From Aminobacter niigataensis (GTDB taxonomy: Bacteria; Pseudomonadota; Alphaproteobacteria; Rhizobiales; Rhizobiaceae): DNA of 64,000 nt. This document shows positions 6,903-55,832 of this stretch, one piece after another. The translations under genes and the position numbers were made by a program. The notes under the pieces were generated by a model. That model was not told where the DNA came from. It was given only the letters and a program-made list of their open reading frames with translations, and searched no databases. Each line of letters starts with the position of its first letter. The first letter of the stretch is position 1. The DNA lies in NCBI RefSeq assembly GCF_014200015.1, contig NZ_JACHOT010000008.1, positions 124,001 to 188,000 on the forward strand. Direction: 5' to 3'.

Positions 6903-7324
6903 GCCGGCGTGGCCTTGATCGAAACGCCGGGATTGATGACGACCTGCTTGCCGTCGGTCAGGACGGCGACGACGCCGTCCTTGAACAGGCGGACTTCGGC
7001 GACGACGCCGGAAGTCTTGCCGTCGGGCGAGGTGACGGTCCGGCCGATCAGCGCGTCGGCCTGGGCGAGCGCCGAGCCCTGCAGGATCTGGTCGAGCCGC
7101 GTGTTCATCTGCACCGACTGTTCGACCTGCGAGAAGGTGGCGAGCTGCGCCACATACTGGGTCGAGTCCATCGGCTTGGTCGGGTCCTGGTTCTTCATCT
7201 GCGCGACGAGCAGCTTGAGGAACGAATTGTAATCGACCTGGGTCTTGGACGGCGCCGGCGTGCCGGTGGCCGTCTTGTTGGTGCTGGTGGAGCCCGGCAC
7301 CGAGGCGGTGTAGTCGATGGCCAT
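6899..7324 (-). CDS. flgD: Flagellar hook assembly scaffold FlgD
   Basis: FlgD caps the growing hook during FlgE polymerisation. The 141-residue protein has the FlgD N-terminal signature FLKLLVAQMKNQDPTKPMDS at about residues 35-54 followed by QYVAQLATFSQVEQ. It is much shorter than the enterobacterial protein, lacking most of the C-terminal Ig/tudor-like region, as is usual in rhizobia. The start shares one base with the flbT stop and its own stop overlaps fliQ. Confidence 0.94.
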   Translation of the reverse strand: MAIDYTASVPGSTSTNKTATGTPAPSKTQVDYNSFLKLLVAQMKNQDPTKPMDSTQYVAQLATFSQVEQSVQMNTRLDQILQGSALAQADALIGRTVTSPDGKTSGVVAEVRLFKDGVVAVLTDGKQVVINPGVSIKATPA

Positions 7325-7767
7325 CAGAATGTACCTCCGGCTGCGATGGCGTGCTCGGCCAGCTGTGGCTGGTCGTTGCTGGCCATGGCGCGCTTTTCCA
7401 GGGGATAGAGCGAGCGGATGGTCTTCAGCGCTTCGTAGACATGGTCCTCGGCGACGAGGCGGTCGATATGCTTGAGGCTCGACAGGATTTCGGGATTGTC
7501 GAAGGTGGCGAGCAGCAGCGGCAGCGACCGGCGGAACATATCGCGGGCCTCGACGGCGCCGACGGGATCGACCAGCATGACCTGCAGGATGAAGTAGAGC
7601 TGGCGCAGCGGCGTCGATGCCTGCTCGGGCTGCAGCACATGGCTTTCGAGCAGGAACTGCACGTCGTTGAGCAGTTCGAGCGAGACCTTGCGGTCGACGC
7701 GGACGACCGCGCCGTTGATGTAGATCTTCTCGTTGGCCTTCAGCGAAATCTTCAGGGTGTTTTTCAT
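7324..7767 (-). CDS. flbT: Flagellin synthesis regulator FlbT
   Basis: A 147-residue FlbT-family protein (KISLKANEKIYINGAVVRVDRK at the N terminus, then QFLLESHVLQPEQASTPLRQ). In Caulobacter FlbT acts after transcription, binding the flagellin mRNA leader and controlling its stability. In this window five flagellin genes carry a conserved structured leader that could be its target (inference). It overlaps flaF by four bases and flgD by one. Confidence 0.94.
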   Translation of the reverse strand: MKNTLKISLKANEKIYINGAVVRVDRKVSLELLNDVQFLLESHVLQPEQASTPLRQLYFILQVMLVDPVGAVEARDMFRRSLPLLLATFDNPEILSSLKHIDRLVAEDHVYEALKTIRSLYPLEKRAMASNDQPQLAEHAIAAGGTF

Positions 7768-8111
7768 TGGATGCCGTCGCGGATGATCTGCGAGACCTCG
7801 ATCAGGCCTTCGAAGCTGTCGGTGCGGCCCTGGCGGATGTCTTCGGCTTCACGCAGCAGCCACAGGCCGATGGAGATGAGATTGGCGCGGAGTTCCTTCG
7901 GCAGCTCGTTCTCGGGGCTGCCGAGGTCGTCGAGCAGCGATGTCCACACCCGGTTGGTGAAGTTCAGCGCCTGGATGGCCTCGTTGGAATTGGCTCCGAC
8001 CTCGCTGGCCGTGGTCAGCATGTCGATCGAGCGCGTGAGAAGCTGACGTTCGCGATCCCGCGCATCGGCGACGGAGTCGGTCTGGATGTCGGCATAGGAG
8101 AATTGATACAT
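7764..8111 (-). CDS. flaF: Flagellin synthesis regulator FlaF
   Basis: A 115-residue FlaF-family protein (start MYQFSYADIQTDSVADARDRE). In Caulobacter FlaF is needed for flagellin synthesis or secretion and acts opposite to FlbT, and it can serve as a flagellin chaperone. It lies 26 bases after flgL and overlaps flbT, an arrangement conserved in rhizobia. Confidence 0.94.
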   Translation of the reverse strand: MYQFSYADIQTDSVADARDRERQLLTRSIDMLTTASEVGANSNEAIQALNFTNRVWTSLLDDLGSPENELPKELRANLISIGLWLLREAEDIRQGRTDSFEGLIEVSQIIRDGIQ

Positions 8112-18015: not shown

Positions 18016-19652
18016 CAGGCGGCGACTTCCTGGGCAGCCCATTTGCGCAGGATCAGAGCGGTGCGCTCTTCATTGATGTCGACCATGCGGGCGAGGCGGT
18101 CCTGTGGGGCGGGACGCAACTTGTTGCGCAGGTCGTCGATGGCGGTGGGACGCGCGCCGGGAAGGGCCGCAGGCGCTTCGGCGGAGGCGGAACCGGCATC
18201 CGGCGTCGGCAGCGAACGCTGGACCTCGTCGAAGCTGGGCCCGGCGATGGCGGCCGGGACCGGCTTGGAAAGGGCGGACGCAAGCGGCCGCAGGCCGAAG
18301 AAGGCGACGAGGAAGACGACGACGATGAAGGCCGCGGCGTTGATCAGCGTGCCGGCGTGCTGGCCAACCGAAGCGAGGACGCCGGGGCTGGCGATCTCCT
18401 CGCCGTCGAGGCCGTCGATGAACTCCACCGCCGAGACGTTGATCAGGTCGCCGCGCTTTTCGTCGAAGCCGGTGGCCGAGATTACCATCTTCTGGATCTC
18501 GGCGACGCGGGTGGCGATCGCCTCCGGCGTGGCGTCCTTGCCGAGGATCGTAGCGAGGCGCTGCTGGTTTACGACGACGGCGATCGACATCTTGGTCACC
18601 GAATAGCCGTTCGAGACGGTCGCGATACGCTTCGAGTTCATCTCATAGTTGGTGATCTCTTCCTTGCGGTCGCTGGCCGAAGTCGACTGCGGCCCGTCCG
18701 TCGCGGTGGCCTCGGCATCGGGCAGGTTCTGCTCGACGGTAGCAGGCGTGGCGGACTGCTTCTGGTTGCTGTTTTCGTTGGCGCGGACGACCTGGACGGA
18801 GCGTTCGACGCGCGACTCGGGATCGAAGATGGTCTCTTCGGTCTGGCGCGAGTCGGTGTTGACGTCGGCTTTGACGCTGGCGCGGAAATTGTCCGGGCCG
18901 AGATAGGCGGCAAGCGCGCGGCGGATGTTGTCCTCGATCTGGGTCTCGACGGTGCGCTCGACGCCGATGGAGCGGGCGGCACTCGAATTGTTGGGATCGT
19001 CGCCCGCTGCAAGCAGGTTGCCGCTCGAATCAAGCACGGTCACCCGCTCGGCATCGAGGCCAGGCACCGCAGCGGCGACCAGATGCCGGATCGACATGGC
19101 GCTCTTGTCGGCATCGAGGCTGGAGGCGCGGATGACGACGGAGGCCGAAGGCTTCTGCTCGTCGCGGCGGAAGTTGGCGCGTTCGGACATGACGATGTGG
19201 ACGCGGGCGGCCTTGATGCCCGTGATCGACTGGATGGTGCGGGCGATCTCGCCTTCCAGCGCACGGACGCGGGTGACCTGCTGCATGAAGGAGGTGAGGC
19301 CGAGCGAGCCGACATTGTCGAAGAGTTCGTAACCGGCGTTGGCGCTGGTCGGCAGGCCCTTTTCGGCAAGCAGCATGCGTGCCTGCGCGGTCTTGCCGGC
19401 GGGGACCAGGACCGTCGTGCCGTCGGAGGCGACGTCGAAGCCGATGCCGGCCTCGCCGAGGACCATGCCGATCTGGTTCACGTCAGAGCGTTCCAGCCCG
19501 ACATAGAGCGTCTCGTAGGCCGGGCGGTTGAGATAGACGGAAGCCACGCCGACGACGGCGATGACCAACGCCGTGATGCCGCCGAGTATGGCGAGCCGGC
19601 GCGGGCCAAAACTCCTGAAATTGGCAACTATGCTCTGTAGCTGTTCGGGCAC
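18015..19652 (-). CDS. fliF: Flagellar MS-ring protein FliF
   Basis: A 545-residue MS-ring protein. The first membrane helix is at about residues 20-40, followed by the ring-building domains (YETLYVGLERSDVNQIGMVL; VRALEGEIARTIQSITGIKA with ARVHIVMSERANFRRDEQKP). A Ser/Thr/Asn-rich linker, a second membrane helix near residues 430-450 and a cytosolic tail that binds FliG complete it. In Sinorhizobium fliF precedes visN, but here it leads the motB operon instead. Confidence 0.95.
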   Translation of the reverse strand: MPEQLQSIVANFRSFGPRRLAILGGITALVIAVVGVASVYLNRPAYETLYVGLERSDVNQIGMVLGEAGIGFDVASDGTTVLVPAGKTAQARMLLAEKGLPTSANAGYELFDNVGSLGLTSFMQQVTRVRALEGEIARTIQSITGIKAARVHIVMSERANFRRDEQKPSASVVIRASSLDADKSAMSIRHLVAAAVPGLDAERVTVLDSSGNLLAAGDDPNNSSAARSIGVERTVETQIEDNIRRALAAYLGPDNFRASVKADVNTDSRQTEETIFDPESRVERSVQVVRANENSNQKQSATPATVEQNLPDAEATATDGPQSTSASDRKEEITNYEMNSKRIATVSNGYSVTKMSIAVVVNQQRLATILGKDATPEAIATRVAEIQKMVISATGFDEKRGDLINVSAVEFIDGLDGEEIASPGVLASVGQHAGTLINAAAFIVVVFLVAFFGLRPLASALSKPVPAAIAGPSFDEVQRSLPTPDAGSASAEAPAALPGARPTAIDDLRNKLRPAPQDRLARMVDINEERTALILRKWAAQEVAA

Positions 19653-19717
19653 GTGCGTAGGCTCCCCGCAATATCTTCCGCGGAGACCCTAGACCTCGAA
19701 GCTTGTGCGAAAATGAT

Positions 19718-19743
19718 ATGGGCCGCGCACGAGGCGCGGCCCA
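19718..19743 (-). terminator. Terminator hairpin after flagellin 1
   Basis: The inverted repeat ATGGGCCGCG-cctcgt-GCGCGGCCCAT lies 30 bases past the flagellin stop. The following bases on the minus strand are only moderately T-rich (ATCATTTTCG). The stem is related to, but shorter and different in loop from, those after the other five flagellin genes. Confidence 0.75.
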
Positions 19744-19773
19744 TTGAAAAAGAAGGGGCGTTTCAGATGCCGA

Positions 19774-20838
19774 TCAGCTCTTGAACAGCGCCAGGATGTT
19801 CTGCGAGTTCGAGTTGGCGATCGACAGCGCCTGGATGCCGAGCTGCTGCTGGACCTGAAGCGCCTGCAGGCGGGTCGATTCCTTGTTCATGTCGGCGTCG
19901 ACGAGCTGGCCGACGCCACGGTCGATGGAGTCCATCAGGCTGGTCGTGAAGTTTTTCTGCAGGTCGATCTGCTTCTTGGCCGCACCGAGCGTGGTTGCGA
20001 CATCGGTCAGATCCTTGAGCACTTCGTCGACCTTGGAGATCATCTGGTTGATGATGTCGTTGGTCACGCCCGTCGCCATGATGTCGAGATTATGGACCGA
20101 CACGTTGTCGACCCTTGTCGTCGCGCCGGCTGCGGCCAGGCCTGCGGTGTGCGCCGCGATGTCGGTGCCGCCGCCGGCAAGCGAAGCGGCATAGGCCGTG
20201 TCGTACTGGGTCTGCGCCGCGGCGGTAGCATAGACGGAGGTCTTGCGGTCGAGGTGGCCGGAATTCTTGACTTCGGCTGCGAGGCCGGAATCGAACAGCT
20301 TGACGCCTTCGACATCGACATCGATGGTGCCGAGCGTGACCTTGCCGTCGGCGCCACGGTTGAAGGCGGACACGATCTTGGCGTCGGGCTGCACACCGTC
20401 GTTGGCGGCGGCAATCTGCTTCGAGGTCACCGACAGGATGTTGGTGCCGGAGAAGGTGGCGGCATCCGCATAGGACTTCATCTGGCCCTGGAGGGCCTCG
20501 ATTTCGGTCTGGATCTTGGCCTTGTCGGAATCGCTGGCGCTGTAGGCGGCGACGAGCTTGATCTTGATCTGGTCGACGGTCTCCAGAACCTTGTTCATGC
20601 CGGTATAGGCGGTGTCGACCTTGGAGGCGCCGAGACCGAGCGCATCCTGCACGGTGGAGAGCGCCTGGTTGTCGGAGCGCATGGTGGTGGCGATCGACCA
20701 GTAGGCGGCGTTGTCCATCGCTTCAGCGACTCGGTAGCCGGTCGAGATGCGGGCTTGCGTGGTCTGGAGCGCCTTGTTTGTGGCGTTGAGGCTCTGAAGC
20801 GCGGTCAGGGCCGAAGCGTTGGTCATGATACTGGACAT
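19774..20838 (-). CDS. fla: Flagellin 1 (divergent member of the flagellin array)
   Basis: A 354-residue flagellin and the most divergent of the six. It starts MSSIMTNASALTALQSL with ISTGYRVAEAMDNAAYW, where the others have MSSINTNASAMTALQTL and IATGLRVAEASDNAAYW, and it ends NSNSQNILALFKS. D0/D1 helices at both ends flank a variable middle (about 150-260). The product is secreted and polymerises into the filament. The upstream region lacks the hairpin leader of the other five and carries a 9-base inverted repeat instead, so it may be regulated separately. Confidence 0.96.
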   Translation of the reverse strand: MSSIMTNASALTALQSLNATNKALQTTQARISTGYRVAEAMDNAAYWSIATTMRSDNQALSTVQDALGLGASKVDTAYTGMNKVLETVDQIKIKLVAAYSASDSDKAKIQTEIEALQGQMKSYADAATFSGTNILSVTSKQIAAANDGVQPDAKIVSAFNRGADGKVTLGTIDVDVEGVKLFDSGLAAEVKNSGHLDRKTSVYATAAAQTQYDTAYAASLAGGGTDIAAHTAGLAAAGATTRVDNVSVHNLDIMATGVTNDIINQMISKVDEVLKDLTDVATTLGAAKKQIDLQKNFTTSLMDSIDRGVGQLVDADMNKESTRLQALQVQQQLGIQALSIANSNSQNILALFKS

Positions 20839-20890
20839 CGAAATACCCCCTCTGAAATCCGCGCGCTGCGCAGGACCGCCCTAGCAATTG

Positions 20891-20920
20891 GTTAACCATA
20901 ACTACCGTTTCATGGTTAAC
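20891..20920. promoter_or_regulatory. Inverted repeat upstream of flagellin 1
   Basis: GTTAACCAT (20891-20899) and ATGGTTAAC (20912-20920) form a perfect nine-base inverted repeat with a 12-base spacer. It lies 53-82 bases upstream of the flagellin 1 start. The half-site ATGGTTAAC recurs upstream of flagellins 2 and 4, and a variant is upstream of flagellin 6. It may be a binding site for a dimeric regulator. Confidence 0.6.
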
Positions 20921-21038
20921 GAGCGATTAAGGGTGGCATGCCCACGCGCGGCCGATGACGCGGCGGAACTTATCTCGGGGGGAGCTTGCGCGGGGCTAGC
21001 GTCGTGGGGCGGCGGCCTTAGGCAGGGGACAAAAGCAA

Positions 21039-21066
21039 TCGGGCCGCATCTTGCGATGCGGCCCGA
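21039..21066 (-). terminator. Terminator hairpin after flagellin 2
   Basis: Perfect stem TCGGGCCGCATC-ttgc-GATGCGGCCCGA followed on the minus strand by TTGCTTTTG. It is identical or nearly so to the hairpins after flagellins 3 to 6. Confidence 0.9.
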
Positions 21067-21098
21067 GCTGGGACGTCTTGTTGCCTGGAACGGTCCGG

Positions 21099-22019
21099 TT
21101 AGCCGCGGAACAGCGACAGGATGGTCTGCGAGTTGCCGTTGGCGATCGACAGCGCCTGGATACCGAGCTGCTGCTGGACCTGGATGGCCTGCAGACGGGT
21201 CGATTCCTTGTTCATGTCGGCGTCGACGAGCTGGCCGACGCCGCGGTCGATCGAGTCCATCAGGCTCGAAGTGAAGGTCTTCTGCAGCTCGATGCGGTTC
21301 TTGGCGGCGCCGAGATCGGTGGCGGCGGTGTTCATTTCCTTGAGCGCCGCTTCGACGCGCTGCAGGTGGTCACCGACGTCGGTGTCGGTGCTGGCAGCGG
21401 TCAGAGCGATGCCGGAAACGGCCGTGCCGGCGCCGGCGGCGCCGGTGGCGGTACGGGTCTTGTCGAGGATGCCCTTGGGAGCTGCGCCGGCCTCGAACAG
21501 CTTGATGTTCTCGACGGTGACGTCGATGGTCGAGATCGAGGCCGTGCCGGTCGCATTGCGGTTGAAGGCTGAGACGATCTTGACGTCGGCCGCCGCCGCC
21601 GCACCGTTGGTCGAGAGCATGTTGGTGCCGGAGAAGGTGGCACCGTCGGCATAGGCCTTGAGCTGCTTCTGCAGCGCCTGGATCTCGGTGTTGATCTTTT
21701 CCTTGTCGGCACCCGAGGCGCCGTTGGCGGCGACGAGCTTGACCTTGATCTCGTTGAGGGTGTCGATGGCCTTGTTCATGCCGGTGTAGGCGGTGTCGAC
21801 CTTCGAGGCGCCGAGACCGAGCGAATCCTGGACCGTCGAGAGTGCCTTGTTGTCCGAACGCATGGTGGTGGCGATCGACCAGTAGGCGGCGTTGTCGGAA
21901 GCTTCGGCGACGCGGAGGCCGGTGGCGATGCGGCCCTGGGTGGTGTTGAGCGCCTTGTTGGTGGCGGCGAGGGTCTGCAGCGCCGTCATTGCCGACGCGT
22001 TGGTATTGATGCTGGACAT
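21099..22019 (-). CDS. fla: Flagellin 2
   Basis: A 306-residue flagellin, the shortest of the set because of a small central domain (about residues 150-220). The N-terminal 85 and C-terminal 70 residues are almost identical to flagellins 3 to 6 (start MSSINTNASAMTALQTL, end SIANGNSQTILSLFRG). The start at 22019 rather than further upstream is set by AGGGG about ten bases before it and by alignment to the paralogues. It has its own promoter region, leader and terminator. Confidence 0.96.
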   Translation of the reverse strand: MSSINTNASAMTALQTLAATNKALNTTQGRIATGLRVAEASDNAAYWSIATTMRSDNKALSTVQDSLGLGASKVDTAYTGMNKAIDTLNEIKVKLVAANGASGADKEKINTEIQALQKQLKAYADGATFSGTNMLSTNGAAAAADVKIVSAFNRNATGTASISTIDVTVENIKLFEAGAAPKGILDKTRTATGAAGAGTAVSGIALTAASTDTDVGDHLQRVEAALKEMNTAATDLGAAKNRIELQKTFTSSLMDSIDRGVGQLVDADMNKESTRLQAIQVQQQLGIQALSIANGNSQTILSLFRG

Positions 22020-22151
22020 GGGAATAACGCCCCTAGGAAAATGCAAAATACAGGGACATACCGGATCGGCCGGTATGACGGAGAGGCATCATGCCCATGA
22101 CCCGAAGGTCACCCGCCATGCCCGGTAACCTGTCGGAGACTCGCTACCAAA
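22020..22151 (-). promoter_or_regulatory. Flagellin 2 promoter and structured leader
   Basis: On the minus strand, in transcription order: box TTTGGTAG (22151-22144), stem TGACC-cgaa-GGTCA (22098-22111), palindrome GGCATGATGCC, stem CATACCGG-N5-CCGGTATG (22057-22077), then CCTAGGGGCG as ribosome site before the ATG at 22019. The half-site ATGGTTAAC lies just upstream at 22164-22172. The transcription start is not known. Confidence 0.7.
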
Positions 22152-22227
22152 GCTCTAAGCGGCATGGTTAACCCAAGAATTAGTGCTGCTTTATTTGGGT
22201 TTTCTGCAAATAGACTGTGTAAAAGCA

Positions 22228-22257
22228 ATCTGGCCGCATCTTGCGATGCGGCCAGAT
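22228..22257 (-). terminator. Terminator hairpin after flagellin 3
   Basis: Perfect stem ATCTGGCCGCATC-ttgc-GATGCGGCCAGAT followed on the minus strand by TGCTTTTACAC. One base pair is changed together relative to the neighbouring copies (C-G pair become T-A). Confidence 0.9.
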
Positions 22258-22289
22258 GAGAGAAGTCTGTTGCCTGGAACGGTTCGGTG

Positions 22290-23396
22290 TTAGCCGCGGA
22301 ACAGCGACAGGATCGACTGCGAGTTGCCGTTGGCGATCGAGAGCGCCTGGATGCCGAGCTGCTGCTGGACCTGGATGGCCTGCAGGCGGGTCGATTCCTT
22401 GTTCATGTCGGCATCGACGAGCTGGCCGACACCACGATCGATGGAGTCCATCAGGCTCGAGGTGAAGGTCTTCTGCAGTTCGATGCGGTTCTTGGCGGCG
22501 CCGAGATCGGTGGCAGCCGTGTTCATCTGCTTGAGCGCGGTTTCGACCTTGCCGAGCAGGCCGGCAAAGAACTGGTCGCCGACAGTGGTGATGTTGAAGT
22601 TGAACACCGAAACGCCTGCGGTCGACGTCGCACCGACGACGCCGCCCGATGCGGGCAGCACGGCGGCAGCCGCGCCGGCCGTGTGCGCGGCCGTATCGGC
22701 GCCGCCGCCGGCGACCGAGGCGGCATAGGCCTTGTCATAGGCCGCCTGCGCGGCGGCCGAATCCCAGATTGCGGTCTGGCGATCGAGGATGCCGGCATTC
22801 TTGATGTAGGTCGGGTTTGCGGCGTTGGTGTCGAACAGCTTGATGTTCTCGACCTTGATGTCGATGGTCGAGATCGAAGCCGTGCCGGCCGCGTTGCGAT
22901 TGAAGGCCGAGACGATCTTCGCATCGGCCTGAACCGCGGTGCCGGCAGCGGCGGCTGCTGCGCCCGCCGCGGTCTTGTCCGAAGACACGGACAGGAAGTT
23001 TGCGCCTGAGAAGGTGGCGCCGTCGGCATAGGCCTTCAGCTGCTTCTGCAGCGCCTTGATATCGGTGTCGATCTTGGCCTTATCGGCAGCCGAGGCACCG
23101 GTGGCGGCGACGATCTTGACCTTGATCTCGTTGAGGGTGTCGATCGACTTGTTCATCGCGGTGTAGGCGGTGTCGACCTTGGATGCGCCGAGGCCGAGGG
23201 AGTCCTGGACCGTCGACAAAGCCTTGTTGTCCGAACGCATGGTGGTTGCGATCGACCAGTAGGCGGCGTTGTCGGAAGCTTCGGCGACACGCAGGCCGGT
23301 GGCAATGCGGCCCTGGGTGGTGTTGAGCGCCTTGTTGGTGGCTGCGAGGGTCTGCAGCGCCGTCATTGCCGACGCGTTGGTGTTGATGCTGGACAT
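22290..23396 (-). CDS. fla: Flagellin 3
   Basis: A 368-residue flagellin with the largest central domain, rich in Ala/Gly/Thr (for example KTAAGAAAAAAGTAVQ near residue 145). The conserved ends match flagellins 2 and 4 to 6. Residue 84 region reads TAYTAMNKSID where others have TAYTGMNK. The middle of this copy shares YDKAYAASVAGGGADTAAHT with the corresponding part of flagellin 1 (YDTAYAASLAGGGTDIAAHT). This suggests the two share a domain type or exchanged sequence. Confidence 0.96.
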   Translation of the reverse strand: MSSINTNASAMTALQTLAATNKALNTTQGRIATGLRVAEASDNAAYWSIATTMRSDNKALSTVQDSLGLGASKVDTAYTAMNKSIDTLNEIKVKIVAATGASAADKAKIDTDIKALQKQLKAYADGATFSGANFLSVSSDKTAAGAAAAAAGTAVQADAKIVSAFNRNAAGTASISTIDIKVENIKLFDTNAANPTYIKNAGILDRQTAIWDSAAAQAAYDKAYAASVAGGGADTAAHTAGAAAAVLPASGGVVGATSTAGVSVFNFNITTVGDQFFAGLLGKVETALKQMNTAATDLGAAKNRIELQKTFTSSLMDSIDRGVGQLVDADMNKESTRLQAIQVQQQLGIQALSIANGNSQSILSLFRG

Positions 23397-23532
23397 GGGA
23401 AAATACGCCCCTAGGAAAATGCAAAAAGTACAGGGACATACCGGGTTGGCCGGTATGGCGGAGCGGCATCATGCCCATGATCGAAAAGATCACCCGCCAT
23501 GGGCAGAGTGTTCCCAGATAATCCCTACCAAA
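23397..23532 (-). promoter_or_regulatory. Flagellin 3 promoter and structured leader
   Basis: TTTGGTAG box at 23532-23525, stem TGATC-gaaaa-GATCA at 23478-23492, stem CATACCGG-N5-CCGGTATG at 23437-23457 and CCTAGGGGCG before the ATG at 23396. The sequence upstream of the box (about 23530-23600) is unusually AT-rich for this genome and lacks the ATGGTTAAC half-site seen at flagellins 2 and 4. Confidence 0.7.
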
Positions 23533-23647
23533 CTGTGTATATTCGATAGATGAGCGAAGTGTTTTGAGATTATATACTTTGGATACTTCCGAAGGCGCAG
23601 TTTGGTCTCAGTCTTTCGCTGCAGGAGCCCTGACCTTCCAAAAGCAA

Positions 23648-23677
23648 TCGGGCCGCATCCAGGGATGCGGCCCGATC
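23648..23677 (-). terminator. Terminator hairpin after flagellin 4
   Basis: Perfect stem ATCGGGCCGCATCC-ag-GGATGCGGCCCGAT followed on the minus strand by TGCTTTTGG. The loop differs from the ttgc loop of most other copies. Confidence 0.9.
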
Positions 23678-23705
23678 TTATGATCAATCGAAAGAGACGG
23701 TCAGG

Positions 23706-24710
23706 TCAGCGGAACAGCGACAGGATGGTCTGTGAGTTGCCGTTGGCGATCGACAGAGCCTGGATGCCGAGCTGCTGCTGGACCTGGATGGCCTGCAGGC
23801 GGGTCGATTCCTTGTTCATGTCGGCGTCGACGAGCTGGCCGACACCGCGATCGATGGAGTCCATCAGGCTCGAGGTGAAGGTCTTCTGCAGTTCGATGCG
23901 GTTCTTGGCGGCGCCGAGATTGGTGGCGGCCGTGTTCATGTCCTTGAGAGCCGCTTCGACGACGCCGAGCATGTCTCCGATCTGGGTGTCGCTCGCCGCC
24001 GTGGCACCGCTGACCAGGGCCATGGTGGCGACGCTGTAGGTGTCGCCAGCAGCCGAGGCGACGCCGAGGGTCGGTGCCTGGATGTCGGCATCGGCGACAC
24101 GCACGCCATCGCTGGTGCGCTGGGCGTCGAGCAGGCCGGCATGGGCATTGTCGGCGGCGCCGGCAGCGTCATAGAGCTTGAGGGCGTTGACGTCGACGTC
24201 GATGGTCGAGATCGAGGCCGTGCCGGCTGCGCTACGGTTGAAGGCCGAGACGATCTTGACCGGTGCGGCGGTGCCGACCGTGGCCGCGGCCGAGGAGTCG
24301 ACCGAGAGCATGTTGGTGCCGGAGAAGGTGGCACCGTCGGCATAGGCCTTCAGCTGCTTCTGCAGCGCCTTGACCTCGGTGTCGATCTTGGCCTTGTCGG
24401 CAGCCGAAGCGCCGGTGGCGGCGACGAGCTTGACCTTGATCTCGTTGAGGGTCTCGATCGACTTGTTCATGCCGGTATAGGCGGTGTCGACCTTCGATGC
24501 GCCGAGGCCGAGGGAATCCTGGACCGTCGACAGTGCCTTGTTGTCGGAACGCATGGTGGTTGCGATCGACCAGTAGGCGGCGTTGTCGGAGGCTTCGGCG
24601 ACGCGAAGGCCCGTGGCAATGCGCCCCTGGGTGGTGTTGAGCGCCTTGTTGGTGGCCGCAAGGGTTTGCAGCGCCGTCATTGCCGACGCGTTGGTATTGA
24701 TACTGGACAT
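23706..24710 (-). CDS. fla: Flagellin 4
   Basis: A 334-residue flagellin with the common ends and its own middle (about residues 145-250). It ends ...ILSLFR without the final Gly of the other copies. The leader is conserved enough that the frame stays open upstream of the start. The ATG at 24710 is fixed by the shared MSSINTNASAM start and by AGGGG upstream. Confidence 0.96.
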   Translation of the reverse strand: MSSINTNASAMTALQTLAATNKALNTTQGRIATGLRVAEASDNAAYWSIATTMRSDNKALSTVQDSLGLGASKVDTAYTGMNKSIETLNEIKVKLVAATGASAADKAKIDTEVKALQKQLKAYADGATFSGTNMLSVDSSAAATVGTAAPVKIVSAFNRSAAGTASISTIDVDVNALKLYDAAGAADNAHAGLLDAQRTSDGVRVADADIQAPTLGVASAAGDTYSVATMALVSGATAASDTQIGDMLGVVEAALKDMNTAATNLGAAKNRIELQKTFTSSLMDSIDRGVGQLVDADMNKESTRLQAIQVQQQLGIQALSIANGNSQTILSLFR

Positions 24711-24842
24711 GGGAATAACGCCCCTAGGAAATGCAAAATACAGGGACATACCGGGTTGGCCGGTATGGCGGAGCGGCATCATGCCCATGATCGAAACGAT
24801 CACCCGCCATGCCGGGTAACCTGTCGGAGACTCGCTACCAAA
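24711..24842 (-). promoter_or_regulatory. Flagellin 4 promoter and structured leader
   Basis: TTTGGTAG box at 24842-24835, stem TGATC-gaaac-GATCA at 24788-24802, stem CATACCGG-N5-CCGGTATG at 24747-24767, and CCTAGGGGCG before the ATG at 24710. ATGGTTAAC lies at 24855-24863, in nearly the same place as at flagellin 2. Confidence 0.7.
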
Positions 24843-24920
24843 GTTCTAAGCGGCATGGTTAACCCCCGGCCGGGGTGCCGCTTTGGCTGGATTCGCCTCA
24901 AATAGACTGTGCAAAAGCAA

Positions 24921-24950
24921 ATCGGGCCGCATCTTGCGATGCGGCCCGAT
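24921..24950 (-). terminator. Terminator hairpin after flagellin 5
   Basis: Perfect stem ATCGGGCCGCATC-ttgc-GATGCGGCCCGAT, followed on the minus strand by TTGCTTTTGC. Confidence 0.9.
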
Positions 24951-24982
24951 GAGAGATGTCTGTTGCCTGGAACGGTTCGGTG

Positions 24983-25984
24983 TTAGCCGCGGAACAGCGA
25001 CAGGATCGACTGCGAGTTGCCGTTGGCGATCGAAAGGGCCTGGATGCCGAGCTGCTGCTGGACCTGGATGGCCTGCAGACGGGTCGATTCCTTGTTCATG
25101 TCGGCGTCGACGAGCTGACCGACGCCGCGATCGATGGAGTCCATCAGGCTCGAGGTGAAGGCCTTCTGCAGCTCGATGCGGTTCTTGGCGGCGCCGAGAT
25201 TGGTGGCAGCCGTGTTCATGTCCTTGAGCGCGCTTTCGACAACGCTGAGCATCTGGCCGATCTGCGCGTCGTTGGCGTAGTCGGTGCCGTCGGTCAGCTG
25301 CATTGACGCCACCGTGAAGGTGTCGGTTTGGCTGAAGGTGCCGAGCACCACGGCATCAACCGCAGCAACCTCGGAGACAGCGCCTGCAACGCTGACAACG
25401 CGGTTGGAGTCGAGGATGCCCTTGTTGACGCCGGCAGCGGTGCCGGCTTCGTAGAGCTTGATGTTCTCGACGGTGACGTCGATGGTCGAGATCGCAGCCG
25501 TGCCGGTCGCATCGCGGGTGAAGGCCGAGACGACCTTGATGTCGGCCGCAGTGGTGGCGGTGGCGCCGCTGTTGACCGAAAGCATGTTGGCGCCGGAGAA
25601 GGTCGCGCCGTCGGCATAGGCCTTGAGCTGCTTCTGCAGCGCCTTGACCTCGGTGTCGATCTTGGCCTTGTCGGCAGCCGAAGCGCCGGTGGCGGCAACG
25701 AGCTTGACCTTGATTTCGTTGAGGGTGTCGATGGTCTTGTTCATGCCGGTGTAGGCGGTGTCGACCTTCGAAGCGCCGAGACCGAGGGAATCCTGGACCG
25801 TGGACAGCGCCTTGTTGTCCGAACGCATGGTGGTGGCGATCGACCAATAGGCGGCATTGTCGGAAGCTTCGGCGACGCGGAGGCCGGTGGCGATGCGGCC
25901 CTGGGTGGTGTTGAGCGCCTTGTTGGTGGCTGCGAGGGTCTGCAGCGCCGTCATTGCCGACGCATTGGTGTTGATGCTGGACAT
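24983..25984 (-). CDS. fla: Flagellin 5
   Basis: A 333-residue flagellin. It shares with flagellin 6 features absent from 2 to 4, such as RIELQKAFTSSLMDS near the C terminus (the others have KTFTSS) and VVSAFTRDA in the middle (the others have NRNA or NRSA). It is therefore the closest paralogue of flagellin 6. The start is set as for flagellin 2. Confidence 0.96.
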   Translation of the reverse strand: MSSINTNASAMTALQTLAATNKALNTTQGRIATGLRVAEASDNAAYWSIATTMRSDNKALSTVQDSLGLGASKVDTAYTGMNKTIDTLNEIKVKLVAATGASAADKAKIDTEVKALQKQLKAYADGATFSGANMLSVNSGATATTAADIKVVSAFTRDATGTAAISTIDVTVENIKLYEAGTAAGVNKGILDSNRVVSVAGAVSEVAAVDAVVLGTFSQTDTFTVASMQLTDGTDYANDAQIGQMLSVVESALKDMNTAATNLGAAKNRIELQKAFTSSLMDSIDRGVGQLVDADMNKESTRLQAIQVQQQLGIQALSIANGNSQSILSLFRG

Positions 25985-26122
25985 GGGAATAACGCCCCTA
26001 GGAAAATGCAAAATACAGGGACATACCGGATCGGCCGGTATGGCGGAGAGGCATCATGCCCATGACCGTTTCAAGCAAGTCATCCGCCATGCAGCAGATG
26101 TAGCTTCGGCGTGGCTACCAAA
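25985..26122 (-). promoter_or_regulatory. Flagellin 5 promoter and structured leader
   Basis: TTTGGTAG box at 26122-26115, stem ATGAC-N12-GTCAT at 26062-26083, stem CATACCGG-N5-CCGGTATG at 26022-26042, and CCTAGGGGCG before the ATG at 25984. The region above the box is AT-rich (AATTAAC-type repeats at 26120-26165). Confidence 0.68.
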
Positions 26123-26188
26123 TTGCTAACAATTGTAGTTAATTTCAATTAACTTATTGTAATTGCTTACTTTTGGTCCGCAAAAATA

Positions 26189-26218
26189 ATCGGGCCGCAT
26201 CTTGCGATGCGGCCCGAT
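26189..26218 (-). terminator. Terminator hairpin after flagellin 6
   Basis: Perfect stem ATCGGGCCGCATC-ttgc-GATGCGGCCCGAT, followed on the minus strand by TATTTTTGCGG, the best T-tract of the set. Confidence 0.92.
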
Positions 26219-26250
26219 CAGAGACGTTGGTTGCCTGGAACGGTTGGGTG

Positions 26251-27237
26251 TTAGCCGCGGAACAGCGACAGGATCGACTGCGAGTTGCCGTTGGCGATCG
26301 ACAGGGCCTGGATACCGAGCTGCTGCTGGACCTGGATGGCCTGCAGGCGGGTCGATTCCTTGTTCATGTCGGCGTCGACGAGCTGGCCGACGCCGCGATC
26401 GATGGAGTCCATCAGGCTCGAGGTGAAGGCCTTCTGCAGTTCGATGCGGTTCTTGGCGGCGCCGAGGTTGGTGGCAGCCGTGTTCATGTCCTTGAGCGCG
26501 CTTTCGACGACGCCGAGCATGGCGCCGATCTGCGTGTCGCTGGCAAACAGCGTACCGTTGGTCAGCTGCATGGTGGCGACCGTGTAGGTGTCGGCGGCAA
26601 CGGCAGCGGCACCAAGCGTCGGAGCGGCTGCAGCACCTTCAACGCCGGCGGCGGTGCGGTTGGAGTCGAGAATGCCCTTGCCGGTCGTGGCGACGCCTGC
26701 GCCGGCTTCGTAGAGCTTGATGCCCTCGACGTTGATGTCGATGGTCGAGATCGAAGCCGTGCCGGACGCATCGCGGGTGAAGGCCGAGACGACCTTGACG
26801 TCGGCAGCCACGGCGGCGCCGCTGCTGACCGAAAGCATGTTGGCGCCGGAGAAGGTCGCACCGTCGGCATAGGCCTTGAGCTGCTTCTGCAGGGCCTTGA
26901 TTTCGGTGTCGATCTTGGCCTTGTCGGCGTCCGAGGCGCCGCTGGCGGCAACGATCTTGACCTTGATCTCGTTGAGGGTGTCGATGGCCTTGTTCATGCC
27001 GGTGTAGGCGGTGTCGACCTTCGAAGCGCCGAGACCGAGCGAATCCTGGACCGTCGAGAGTGCCTTGTTGTCCGAACGCATGGTGGTGGCGATCGACCAG
27101 TAAGCGGCATTGTCGGAAGCTTCAGCGACGCGGAGACCCGTGGCGATGCGGCCCTGGGTGGTGTTGAGCGCCTTGTTGGTGGCTGCGAGGGTCTGCAGCG
27201 CCGTCATTGCCGACGCATTGGTGTTGATGCTGGACAT
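26251..27237 (-). CDS. fla: Flagellin 6 (first in the array)
   Basis: A 328-residue flagellin directly downstream of the fliP terminator. It has the common N terminus (MSSINTNASAMTALQTL) and C terminus (SIANGNSQSILSLFRG), and is closest to flagellin 5. It is expected to be secreted without a cleaved signal and assembled in the filament. Confidence 0.96.
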   Translation of the reverse strand: MSSINTNASAMTALQTLAATNKALNTTQGRIATGLRVAEASDNAAYWSIATTMRSDNKALSTVQDSLGLGASKVDTAYTGMNKAIDTLNEIKVKIVAASGASDADKAKIDTEIKALQKQLKAYADGATFSGANMLSVSSGAAVAADVKVVSAFTRDASGTASISTIDINVEGIKLYEAGAGVATTGKGILDSNRTAAGVEGAAAAPTLGAAAVAADTYTVATMQLTNGTLFASDTQIGAMLGVVESALKDMNTAATNLGAAKNRIELQKAFTSSLMDSIDRGVGQLVDADMNKESTRLQAIQVQQQLGIQALSIANGNSQSILSLFRG

Positions 27238-27377
27238 GGGAAATACGCCCCTAAAATATGCGCAAGGTACAGGGACATACCGGATCGGCCGGTATGGCGG
27301 AGAGGCATCATGCCAATGACCGCTTCAAGGAGGGTCATCCACCATGCCGGGCAATCTGGCCGATACTTACTACCAAA
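27238..27377 (-). promoter_or_regulatory. Flagellin 6 promoter and structured leader
   Basis: TTTGGTAG box at 27377-27370, stem ATGACC-N11-GGTCAT at 27316-27338, stem CATACCGG-N5-CCGGTATG at 27276-27296, and TTTAGGGGCG before the ATG at 27237. The CCTAGGGG seen in the other copies has diverged to TTTAGGGG. ATGGTTAAT (27390-27398) and GTTAAC (27403-27408) lie just upstream. Confidence 0.68.
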
Positions 27378-27443
27378 CGTCTAAATGTTATGGTTAATGC
27401 GCGTTAACCCGCTAAAATTGTTGATATTCCGAGCGAACAAAGA

Positions 27444-27468
27444 AACGCCCGCAGCAAAGGCGGGCGTT
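27444..27468 (-). terminator. Terminator of the flgF-fliP operon
   Basis: Stem AACGCCCG-N9-CGGGCGTT located 53 bases past the fliP stop, followed on the minus strand by TCTTTGTTCG. It separates the basal-body operon from the flagellin array. Confidence 0.8.
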
Positions 27469-27521
27469 GTCTCCTGACGGTTCCGGCGAGGGCAGCGCGC
27501 GTCCTTCAGACGCGCGGCGGT

Positions 27522-28253
27522 CTACGTAAACGAGCGCACAAGACTGCCGACGAGCAGGTTCCAGCCGTCGATCAGGACGAAGAACAATATCTTGAACGGC
27601 AGCGAGACCACGGTTGGCGGCAGCATCATCATGCCCATGGCCATGGTGATGGTTGCGACGATCAGGTCGATGACGAGGAAGGGCAGCACGATCAGGAAGC
27701 CGATCTCGAAGCCGCGCCGGATCTCGGAGATCATGAAGGCCGGAACCAGGATGCGCAGGTCGACCTTGTCTTCCGATACCGTCTGGCCGCGCTCGCGAGC
27801 GAGGTCGGCGAACAGGTTGAAGTCCTTGTCGCGGACGTTGTGCATCATGAAGGTGCGGAACGGATCGGAGATGCGGTCGACGGCTTCGGTCTGGGTGATC
27901 TGGTTGTCCATCAGCGGCTTGACGCCGTTGTTCCAGGCCTGATCGAAGGTCGGCGACATGACGTAGAAGGTCATGAACAGCGACAGCGAAATCAGGATCA
28001 GGTTGGCCGGCGTCGACTGCAGGCCGATGCCGGTGCGCAGGATCGAGAAGGCGATGACGAAGCGGGTGAAGCTCGTGACCATGATCAGCAGACCCGGCGC
28101 CACCGAAAGCACGGTGAGCAGGCCGAACATCTGGATGATGTAGCCGATGGTGGCGCCGTCGGCATTGCCGATGGCGCCGAGGTCGAGCTGCTGCGCGCTC
28201 GCGGGCAGGGCGGTGCCGGCAAGGATGGCTGCGGTGGCCAGGAGTTTTTTCAT
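27522..28253 (-). CDS. fliP: Flagellar export gate protein FliP
   Basis: A 243-residue export-gate protein with a cleavable signal peptide (hydrophobic residues 4-15, ending PASA). Four membrane helices carry the family signatures FTRFVIAFSILRTGIGLQS and ISEIRRGFEIGFLIVLPFLV. FliP forms the pentameric pore with FliR and FliQ. The ATG overlaps the fliL stop as ATGA. It is the last gene of the operon, before a terminator. Confidence 0.96.
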   Translation of the reverse strand: MKKLLATAAILAGTALPASAQQLDLGAIGNADGATIGYIIQMFGLLTVLSVAPGLLIMVTSFTRFVIAFSILRTGIGLQSTPANLILISLSLFMTFYVMSPTFDQAWNNGVKPLMDNQITQTEAVDRISDPFRTFMMHNVRDKDFNLFADLARERGQTVSEDKVDLRILVPAFMISEIRRGFEIGFLIVLPFLVIDLIVATITMAMGMMMLPPTVVSLPFKILFFVLIDGWNLLVGSLVRSFT

Positions 28254-28753
28254 TCGAACAGCAACGTTCTGATCAGCACTTCCTTGACGTGGCCGTCGCT
28301 GCGGATCGCGGCGCGTTCGTCGAGGTCGGTCTTGAGGTGGCGCAAGGCGCTGGCGCCCTGGACCTGATGGATCCGGAGCGTGCGCACGAAGGCGAGCAGG
28401 TCCTGGTGGACGCGCTCGGCGAGGTCCGGCGGTTGCGGTGCGTCGAGCACCAGGGAAAGCTCGAGGCGCACCCACATGCTGTCGGGGGCGGCGAGGTTGG
28501 AGGTGATGGCGGGCAATTGCACCAGGGTGCCGGCGCCTTCGGTCGCGCCGGTGTCGGTGCTGCCCTCTTTCGCGGTGTGGGGCTTGGCTTGTTCGGCTGC
28601 GGCCTGCTCGACCGGCTTGGCTTCGCCGTAGAGATAGCCGCCGGAGAGCCAGCCCATGCCGATGGCCGCAGCGGTCATCAGCAGCAGGATGCCGACCTGG
28701 ACGACGAGCGAGGGGCCGGATTTCTGGGCGGGGGTCTGTTCGATCGCTGACAT
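28250..28753 (-). CDS. fliL: Flagellar basal body-associated protein FliL
   Basis: A 167-residue single-pass inner-membrane protein. The cytosolic start (MSAIEQTPAQKSGPS) is followed by one helix at about 16-38, an Ala/Glu-rich linker, and a periplasmic domain with VRLELSLVLDAP and HVKEVLIRTLLFE, typical of FliL. It surrounds or supports the stator. It starts eight bases after flgH and overlaps fliP. Confidence 0.93.
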   Translation of the reverse strand: MSAIEQTPAQKSGPSLVVQVGILLLMTAAAIGMGWLSGGYLYGEAKPVEQAAAEQAKPHTAKEGSTDTGATEGAGTLVQLPAITSNLAAPDSMWVRLELSLVLDAPQPPDLAERVHQDLLAFVRTLRIHQVQGASALRHLKTDLDERAAIRSDGHVKEVLIRTLLFE

Positions 28754-54613: not shown

Positions 54614-54635
54614 GAAACAGCGCGAGGGTGATGCC

Positions 54636-55832
54636 ATGAGCTCCTACCGCAACAGCGAAACCGTGCCGCCGATCATGCAGGGCTCGCCGCCCAGGATGCC
54701 GGTGCCGAAAGCGGCGTGGGACATGCCGCCGTGGAACCGCTGGGCCTTCCAGCATGTACGCGAGATCGTGCCGACGGTGGAGGTGTGGCGCGGCGAAGGG
54801 CCGGTGCGTGCATTGCCGCGCGCCGAAACCGACCTGGACGGGCTGGCGGTCGTTGACAGCGAGGGCAAGCCGACGACGCTTTCGGGCCTGCTCGACGAGA
54901 CCTACACTGACGGCTTCCTGGTGCTCAAGGACGGCAACATCGCCTATGAACGCTATTTCAACGGCATGACGCCGCGCACGCCGCATCTGTCGCAATCGGT
55001 GGCCAAGTCTGTGACGGGAGCGACGTTCGGCATCCTGGCGGGGCGTGGCATCGTCGACCCGAAGAAGCTGGTGACCGACTATCTGCCGGAACTGGCAACG
55101 ACCGGCTGGAAAGGTGCGACCCTCCAGCAGGTGCTCGACATGACCACCGGCGTGCGCTTCAGCGAGGCCTATACCGACCCCTATTCGGACATCGGCCAGG
55201 TCGATGTCGCCGGCGGCTGGAAGCCCGTTCCCTCGGACACCGACCCCGACTTTCACTGGCCGCAGCATATGTTCGAGCTGATCCTGCGCCTGACCGAAAC
55301 CACGCGGCCGCATGGCGCTGCCTTCGAATACCGCTCGATTGAAACAGACGTGCTCGCCTTCGTCATGGAGCGGGCGACGGGCAAGCGGCTGGCGCAATTG
55401 GTCTCGGAAGAGCTGTGGCAGAAGATCGGCGCTGAGGAGAGCGCCCATTTCACCGTCGACAGCGCCGGCTATGCGATAGCCGATGGCGGCTTCAACGCGA
55501 CGCTGCGCGACTATACCCGCTTTGGCCAGGCGATCCTGGAAGATGGCGCCGGTATCGTGCCAGCCGACTGGATTGCCGAGACGCGGAACGGCGTTCACGG
55601 CCCGAACTTCAGCACTTCGATGCCGGATGCCAGCTACCGCAACCAGTTCTGGATCGAGGATCCGCGCTCGCGCGCCCTGATGTGCCGGGGCGTGTTCGGG
55701 CAGCTGATCCATATCGACTGGGCGACCCGAATGGTGACGGTGAAGCTGTCGACCTGGCCTGACTTCACCTCCGTGCCCTATTCAGTGGCGACCTTGAAGG
55801 CTGTGCATGCAATCGCCGCCGCACTGGCCTGA
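54636..55832 (+). CDS. Beta-lactamase-fold serine hydrolase 1
   Basis: A 398-residue enzyme of the class C beta-lactamase/EstB/6-aminohexanoate-dimer-hydrolase group. The nucleophile motif SxxK is SVAK at residues 121-124, and the Tyr motif is probably in FEYRSIETDVLAFVMERATG. No signal peptide is seen, so it is likely cytosolic, unlike true beta-lactamases. It probably hydrolyses a small amide or ester brought in by the adjacent transporter (inference). The ATG at 54636 follows GCGAGGGTG. Confidence 0.85.
   Translation: MSSYRNSETVPPIMQGSPPRMPVPKAAWDMPPWNRWAFQHVREIVPTVEVWRGEGPVRALPRAETDLDGLAVVDSEGKPTTLSGLLDETYTDGFLVLKDGNIAYERYFNGMTPRTPHLSQSVAKSVTGATFGILAGRGIVDPKKLVTDYLPELATTGWKGATLQQVLDMTTGVRFSEAYTDPYSDIGQVDVAGGWKPVPSDTDPDFHWPQHMFELILRLTETTRPHGAAFEYRSIETDVLAFVMERATGKRLAQLVSEELWQKIGAEESAHFTVDSAGYAIADGGFNATLRDYTRFGQAILEDGAGIVPADWIAETRNGVHGPNFSTSMPDASYRNQFWIEDPRSRALMCRGVFGQLIHIDWATRMVTVKLSTWPDFTSVPYSVATLKAVHAIAAALA

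Follow-up and report, generated by a model that had tools for sequence, protein, structure and literature searches.

FlbT is said to bind the 5' untranslated region (UTR) of flagellin mRNA in Caulobacter crescentus (Anderson and Gober, 2000), and flagellin synthesis reportedly depends on FlbT in Brucella melitensis (Ferooz, 2011), as does that of the LafA flagellin in Bradyrhizobium (Mongiardini, 2017). The subject of this report is a stretch of 64,000 nucleotides (nt) from Aminobacter niigataensis, hereafter the window, in which five of six flagellin genes are preceded by a conserved, predicted RNA leader that may be read by FlbT. Passages of published papers describe FlbT as repressing flagellin and promoting decay in Caulobacter (PMC4347634, PMC3930126), as an activator needed for flagellin in Brucella (PMC8781033, PMC4347634) and as inducing LafA in Bradyrhizobium (PMC8429497). 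Passages in two other papers report that insertions in flbT and flaF were recovered in a screen for non-motile mutants of A. fabrum (PMC9812332) and that an flbT mutant of Phaeobacter is still motile (PMC11974857). Flagellin mRNA is also under translational control by an RNA-binding protein in the CsrA-FliW system, where CsrA binds GGA motifs, according to the relevant part of PMC4894983.

The locus resembles that of Caulobacter in the probable place of the element, a flagellin 5' UTR, and in possessing flbT-flaF and several flagellins, one of which stands apart. It differs in that FlbT represses there and in that R2, a covariance model of the leader described below, found no convincing leader outside the order in a sample of the class, the Caulobacter leader itself lying outside the comparison. 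Brucella melitensis and Bradyrhizobium belong to the same order as Aminobacter and need FlbT for flagellin (LafA in the latter), but the passages on FlbT in PMC8781033, PMC4347634 and PMC8429497 contain no description of a structured leader. In contrast to CsrA-FliW, the profiles of FlbT and CsrA do not match, and no GGA occurs in the loops of the window leaders (AUGAU in the P3 arm, CCGAU or CCAAC in the hairpin). Cis-regulatory families in Rfam 15 share a structured leader with sequestration of the Shine-Dalgarno (SD) sequence; none matches, there being no covariance-model match at the gathering cut-off in 18 related loci and no match up to E 5 on any leader in window positions 19500-28300. 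A full-text literature search found no description of the leader, the primary FlbT papers and the greater part of the subscription literature being outside its reach. The leader is rated as a translational flagellin leader, a kind of control already known; its structure is new, its distribution wide, and chemotaxis genes are probable further targets.

Five flagellin leaders in the window

A sequence-only reading of the window had reported an eight-pair hairpin with two loop versions, CATACCGG-N5-CCGGTATG, before every flagellin gene except flagellin 1. This 21-mer is present without mismatch at 22057-22077, 23437-23457, 24747-24767, 26022-26042 and 27276-27296. A search of the window allowing up to 3 mismatches returned five matches, compared with a mean of 0.14 and a maximum of 1 in 100 shuffles. 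These five are the only exact copies in the genome (5.28 Mb); the remaining 24 forward matches have 2-3 mismatches and about equal the 22 found with the backward pattern as control. All five genes lie on the minus strand and their leaders end at ATG. The distance from hairpin to start codon, reported as 37-40 bases, was nearly right, the coordinates giving 36-40 nt. The surrounding leader had been described as a conserved non-coding region of about 90 bases. It is non-coding, changes in length of one loop (that of helix P2) by other than multiples of three ruling out a coding sequence, but the conserved block is longer, about 105-112 nt. Mean pairwise identity of the five leaders is 0.87 at -62..-1 and 0.71 at -108..-63, against 0.56 and 0.54 further upstream. 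The five genes are close paralogs, with identity of 0.89 over the first 150 codons and of 0.81 at third positions of degenerate codons for the same residue; therefore leader identity within the genome proves little, and comparison with relatives was used instead. The genes and leaders are listed below, with leader spans taken from R2 and genes identified by open reading frame (ORF).

21099..22019, minus strand: flagellin 2, leader-bearing (ORF and flagellin N-terminus)
22017..22135, minus strand: flagellin 2 leader (90.0 bits, E 1.3e-24); P1 22113-22119/22075-22081, P3 22085-22095, core 22060-22074, P4 5' arm 22052-22058, SD 22029-22034
22290..23396, minus strand: flagellin 3, leader-bearing (ORF and flagellin N-terminus)
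23394..23515, minus strand: flagellin 3 leader (88.2 bits); P1 23494-23500/23455-23461, P3 23465-23475, core 23440-23454, P4 5' arm 23432-23438, SD 23407-23412
23706..24710, minus strand: flagellin 4, leader-bearing (ORF and flagellin N-terminus)
24708..24826, minus strand: flagellin 4 leader (93.1 bits; in the R2 training set); P1 24804-24810/24765-24771, P3 24775-24785, core 24750-24764, P4 5' arm 24742-24748, SD 24720-24725
24983..25984, minus strand: flagellin 5, leader-bearing (ORF and flagellin N-terminus)
25982..26105, minus strand: flagellin 5 leader (91.2 bits); P1 26084-26090/26040-26046, P3 26050-26060, core 26025-26039, P4 5' arm 26017-26023, SD 25994-25999
26251..27237, minus strand: flagellin 6, leader-bearing (Pfam Flagellin_N and Flagellin_C)
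27235..27361, minus strand: flagellin 6 leader (92.7 bits; in the R2 training set); P1 27339-27345/27294-27300, P3 27304-27314, core 27279-27293, P4 5' arm 27271-27277, SD 27247-27252

The hairpins of the window leaders are followed by UCCCUGUA and no direct U run, and in this they do not have the form of an intrinsic terminator or attenuator. Terminator-like hairpins, GGGCCGCATC..GATGCGGCCC with a T run, are found 3' of several flagellin genes (26182-26253 and 24914-24965, minus strand), and weak matches to Rfam BjrC68, below its cut-off, fall at the same two places.

Architecture of the leader in relatives

In the comparison with relatives, 118 flagellin starts (two more had no upstream sequence) yielded 109 distinct upstream sequences, 95 of which contain the P3 anchor and 89 also CCGG..CCGG. 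These 89 leaders were compared without alignment, and 70 of them were aligned with MAFFT (alignment A4), one being too long and 18 over 80% alike. Because leaders were selected by these anchors, the invariance of P3 and the CCGG core in the counts that follow is partly due to selection. As judged from this comparison, the conserved unit in relatives is a leader of about 110 nt, predicted to fold as a whole, and not the CATACCGG/CCGGTATG stem. Its parts are helix P1, which closes a junction; an arm, P3, whose loop is nearly invariant AUGAN; a short hairpin with the core CCGG/CCGG, which is the core of the reported stem; and often a helix, P4, on the SD site.

P1 is the best supported of the helices. 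Its 3' arm, the seven bases 5' of the core, is CCGCCAT or CCGTCAT in the window and TCGTTAT, TCGCTAT, CTGCTGT and others elsewhere, while its 5' arm, mostly 25-40 nt upstream of P3, is ATGGCGG or ATGGTGG in the window and ATGACGG, ATAGCGA or ACAGCAG elsewhere. All seven pairs are formed in 63 of the 89 leaders (one of which has an empty P1 arm), compared with 21% for swapped arms with at least two differing sites, and none of 2000 permutations, which ignore relatedness, reached the pairing of the leaders' own arms. In A4, 94.7% of P1 cells are paired, with changes on both sides in six of the seven pairs and, for one pair, 21 G-U cells. Leaders from other families, held out for this purpose, gave 61% versus 27% (0/5000); they comprise 70 matches reduced to 67 distinct sequences, of which four lie before chemoreceptors, and this test lets the P1 arm slide, some arms being found at implausible distances. 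Paired cells amount to 99.5% for P3, 95.4% for the hairpin core, 80.2% for P4 and 59.1% for P2, which is out of register through a bulge in many rows. The covariation score of the whole structure is 0.244 in A4, against 0.161 when shuffled and at most 0.144 when slid, and RNAalifold places P1, P2, P3, the core and P4 together on the five window leaders. Comparison of sequences thus shows, as a predicted fold, the P1-closed junction with P3 and its AUGAN loop and the CCGG/CCGG hairpin; the further putative arm P2 is less well supported.

The eight-pair hairpin as the element itself is rejected. Its inner five pairs are the hairpin core, whereas the outer three (CAT/ATG) show no both-side change in A4, are all kept in 45 of 89 leaders and pair no better with their own partners than with swapped ones (mean 2.31 versus 2.34). 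The non-covarying outer pairs and the equality of own and swapped partners speak against an isolated eight-pair hairpin. The CAT is used as the 3' end of the larger, covarying P1, and the ATG adjoins and partly forms P4, so that the eight-pair hairpin and the P1/P4 fold are mutually exclusive; this exclusion could be a switch.

P4 pairs GUCCC, 3' of the hairpin, with GGGRC of the SD sequence, before the start codon. Both motifs are found in 61 of the 89 family leaders, one alone in 1 and 3, and neither in 24 (Fisher p 2e-17); for the 67 leaders of other families the counts are 36, 3 and 12, and 16 (p 1.5e-5). In all 97 leaders that have both motifs, U is faced by A or G, as pairing demands. 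The predicted pairing probability of the SD sequence is 0.90-0.99 in the five window leaders. P4 is thereby supported, less strictly, as a probable helix in about two thirds of family leaders; it is less certain than P1, since it rests on co-occurrence, without covariation in its class.

Transcription probably begins near the 5' arm of P1, so that the leader region would be transcribed. This start is suggested by the constant spacing of a possible promoter element before P1 and by the enrichment of GGTAG: of 62 leaders with a seven-pair P1 (the window included), 19 have it at 18-30 nt before P1, compared with 2 of 62 in a control window.

22144..22151, minus strand: TTTGGTAG, possible promoter element, 24 nt before the P1 5' arm
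23525-23532, 24835-24842, 26115-26122 and 27370-27377, minus strand: TTTGGTAG with the same 24-nt spacing

Sequences of the TTAACCAT type further upstream resemble sites for CtrA, whose consensus is TAA-N7-TTAAC and whose motifs have been reported for flaA, flaC, flaD, mcpE and mcpY of S. meliloti (PMC3616915). On transcription start sites in S. meliloti, a term search of the main text of that paper finds these five genes named only for CtrA motifs, and the main text of a small RNA survey (PMC2873474) contains no flagellin terms.

Genomes and genes that carry the leader

Two models were used for searching. With R1, a sequence-only model of the five window leaders, 80 of the 151 genomes of the family gave a match at E <= 0.001. 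R2, the structure model, was trained on family leaders, so its family counts are not independent, whereas its out-of-family matches are; for the same reason distant leader forms could be missed. The search of relatives with a covariance model, which the sequence-only reading had proposed, found the leader with R2 in 120 of the 151 family genomes (E <= 0.001) and in 74 of 249 genomes of the order (E <= 0.01). It is present in 118 of the 124 flagellin-bearing family genomes sampled, and in two of the six exceptions laxer filters bring out a weak leader immediately 5' of a flagellin-like start. At E <= 1e-5 it is found in 55 genomes of the order, 10 of the same family and 45 of others. The out-of-family matches at this level number 67, of which 62 were inspected, the other five lying within two sampled clusters. 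Among these 62, 56 lie before a flagellin (in one case with a gap 65 nt longer) and 4 before a chemoreceptor; the rest are locus L278, with a flagellin-like ORF without Pfam match, and one match cut by a contig end. Weaker matches in the order are mixed, including some flagellins and, from about E 1e-4, also matches without such a gene. In the class sample of 385 genomes, R2 matched 19 at E <= 0.01. Two of these belong to the order; the 17 outside it have weak matches (best E 6.7e-5), and ten fetched loci had no flagellin nearby (one 14-residue match, E 0.91). Named records among the matches listed are Mesorhizobium, Aminobacter, Nitratireductor, Chelativorans and Microvirga; the leader also matches in Phyllobacterium (three flagellins) and at a pRL11 flagellin of Rhizobium johnstonii 3841, where the match is weak (29.8 bits).

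The leader of L278 (E 7.9e-15) precedes a 274-residue ORF (reverse strand, 1096-1917) with an AAYWSI motif; despite this flagellin-like motif it has no Pfam match, and it may be a decayed flagellin. Genome G137 (contig C1) has eleven flagellin matches and eight leader matches. In the window genome only the five flagellins score with the leader model, the next best match having E 0.49; a weak match of 14 bits lies at 54635-54770 on the minus strand (E 0.014 in the window).

Leader matches that lay alone or at a distance from flagellin clusters were examined, together with that of genome G098; six proved to precede flagellins and fourteen did not. All 13 ORFs scanned against Pfam encode chemotaxis or cyclic di-GMP (c-di-GMP) proteins, namely four globin-coupled chemoreceptors, six other chemoreceptors, one CheA-like protein and two PAS-GGDEF-EAL proteins. 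The fourteenth (G098, locus L359), outside the Pfam scan, is by eye a globin-coupled chemoreceptor. Their leader matches range from E 1.3e-13 to 0.0023. P1 has 6-7 pairs in the usual place in nine loci (L245, L246, L252, L247, L248, L254, L255, L251 and L261) and reaches 5 pairs in L249, L250 and L257; in L258 (7 pairs) and L359 (6 pairs) it is out of place and was not counted. In L247, L248 and L261 the ORF starts at the end of the model.

FlbT, leaderless flagellins and competing explanations

The folded leader is widespread, and the ribosome-binding site appears to be hidden within its fold; the leader is therefore probably a shared flagellar control element. Each of the five flagellin mRNAs would begin, near the P1 5' arm, with a structured leader that controls translation, and by default P4 would prevent translation. 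The platform formed by P1, P3 and the hairpin would be recognized by a factor acting in trans, for which FlbT, perhaps together with FlaF or cytoplasmic flagellin, is the likeliest candidate and which would free the SD sequence once the hook-basal body is ready; flagellin 1, having no leader, would escape this control. Taken as a whole, this explanation is held with somewhat better than even confidence on the strength of sequence comparisons. The gene that the sequence-only reading had assigned to FlbT is borne out by Pfam:

7324..7767, minus strand: flbT, candidate trans-acting reader (PF07378, 140.3 bits)
7764..8111, minus strand: flaF, overlapping flbT (PF07309, 112.7 bits)

Among the 151 family genomes, leader and FlbT are both present in 118 and both absent in 23, agreeing in 141, and 118 of 120 leader genomes have FlbT; agreement of this kind may be found for any two traits that go with motility. 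FlbT is a plausible candidate for the reader. The effect of FlbT here is expected to differ from the decay described in Caulobacter, since SD pairing suggests translation control and FlbT is described as an activator in the order. Whether FlbT activates or represses seems to go with the presence of the leader, as far as five organisms indicate, their own leaders lying outside the comparison. In an AlphaFold2 model of FlbT (pLDDT 87.5) a beta part at the N-terminus is followed by a helical bundle at the C-terminus; one further row, L383, was left out of folding as its DNA contained N. A relationship to CsrA was rejected, for although the strand pattern is similar, hhalign comparison of profiles for the N-terminal beta region gave probabilities of 0.5% and 0.2% (with four CsrA sequences only). 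Likewise, the C-terminal bundle was not accepted as FliS-like, Z scores of 8.5, 7.9 and 7.5 to chains of FliS, the flagellin chaperone, being below the informative level for helical bundles. For both FlbT models Foldseek found nothing at E <= 0.001 and a VIA-align fold search gave no informative match, the absence of CsrA from its listed matches proving nothing.

Several observations weigh against translational control by FlbT through P4. Single-sequence energies prefer the eight-pair fold in four of five window leaders, by 1.7-5.3 kcal/mol, and the P1/P4 fold in one; the eight-pair fold also buries the SD sequence through another pairing, so that, with the SD paired in both, neither fold is evidently ON. 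Fold z-scores are modest (-1.3 to -2.0). A purine-rich SD sequence alone would favor GGGRC and A or G opposite U; within the TGTCCC class P4 pairs equally with own and swapped partners (17.5 versus 17.5), and neither P4 nor a substitute is seen where TGTCCC is lacking, in 28 of 89 leaders (10.5 versus 10.8). Apart from the three loci named above, the non-flagellin ORFs, chosen as the longest, start 14-232 nt further downstream, which loosens the link of gene to leader. The co-occurrence of leader and FlbT is confounded by motility. Of the 151 family genomes, two, G130 (89% complete) and G098 (which has no flagellin), have the leader but not FlbT, and 8 have FlbT but not the leader. A convincing leader is likewise lacking in nearly all FlbT-bearing class genomes, among them G230 and G265 of the same order; a dozen of these have weak matches (E 6.7e-5 to 0.01) that are probably due to chance.

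Some of these observations are what would be expected if the same leader had another reader, such as a small RNA, another RNA-binding protein, an RNase or a ligand, and FlbT made no contact with it. FlbT is present in 135 of the 385 class genomes while the leader is convincing in 2 only, both of the same order, and in G098 a leader match of E 3.8e-9 stands before the apparent globin-coupled chemoreceptor without any FlbT or flagellin match, although P1 is doubtful there. On the other side stand the post-transcriptional effects of FlbT on flagellin that passages report for Brucella, Bradyrhizobium and Caulobacter, and the flbT and flaF insertions in the A. fabrum screen. Another reader is possible, but noticeably less likely than FlbT. 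The leader might also be a passive by-product, a 5' UTR carried along by recent flagellin duplication whose fold only stabilizes the mRNA, as the close paralogy of the five window genes would allow; its occurrence in further families of the order, where compensatory changes have preserved P1, and its position before non-homologous genes in some genomes make this improbable. The lack of in-class covariation in P4 and the start of most chemotaxis ORFs beyond the leader end nevertheless tell slightly for this by-product and against FlbT-read translational control. A role of the inverted repeats as DNA operators, bound by a transcription factor, is very unlikely, for although GGCATGATGCC and CATACCGG-N5-CCGGTATG are near-palindromic and the five stems identical, RNA fits better with covarying and G-U-tolerant P1 arms, a spacing that varies with the P2 arm, and an element that runs right up to the start codon and, in most leaders, contains a complement of the SD sequence.

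The flagellin without leader also has counterparts in relatives.

19774-20838, minus strand: flagellin 1, without leader (Pfam Flagellin_N and Flagellin_C)

Its omission from the leader-bearing genes was correctly noted in the sequence-only reading, there being no hairpin copy and no R2 match upstream up to E 10. A tree of 53 rows, some of them near-copies, was made from 16 full-length leaderless and 37 leader-bearing flagellins. By alignment, 13 of the 16 leaderless flagellins start with GTG or TTG (L353 being counted as GTG from the bases before its aligned residue), and the exceptions are the three of the window's genus; all 37 leader-bearing flagellins start with ATG, two L020 rows and the window genes being read from their flagellin starts. 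The absence of the leader thus goes with a weak start codon, which fits what might be a minor or regulatory flagellin. On the tree the leaderless label requires 7 changes, at least 6 of them forced by starred branches, against 14 with shuffled labels, and gene conversion could blur this tree. Membership of flagellin 1 in a single FljJ-like orthologous group was rejected, as the leaderless flagellins are not one clade (Caulobacter FljJ being outside the tree). In Caulobacter a single flagellin, FljJ, is described in a passage of PMC7591256 as the co-repressor with FlbT of the other flagellins; leaderless flagellins may resemble it functionally, homology not being implied. Upstream of flagellin 1 (20891-20920, minus strand) lies an inverted repeat, GTTAACCAT-N12-ATGGTTAAC, with an adjoining TTAA-N7-TTAAC, which resembles CtrA sites.

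A wider proposal, put forward tentatively and with considerable doubt, is that the leader defines a Hyphomicrobiales-wide post-transcriptional regulon of late motility, comprising flagellins, chemoreceptors and some c-di-GMP enzymes and read by FlbT. FlbT represses in Caulobacter and seems dispensable for Phaeobacter swimming; on this view, gain of an SD-closing leader made it an activator in the order of Aminobacter. The flagellin that lacks the leader, in many cases also marked by a weak start codon, would be made first, and its secretion would report hook completion. In rhizobia the signal for late (class III) flagellin and chemotaxis genes after completion of the basal body is only presumed, according to a passage of PMC8429497. 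A covarying leader on flagellins and some chemoreceptor genes makes this late-gene step testable, and would offer a reason why FlbT is described as a repressor in Caulobacter while it is reportedly needed for flagellin in Brucella and Bradyrhizobium and, going by a motility screen, for swimming in Agrobacterium. The leader can also be added to annotation, one covariance model sufficing for nearly all sampled flagellin-bearing genomes of the family.

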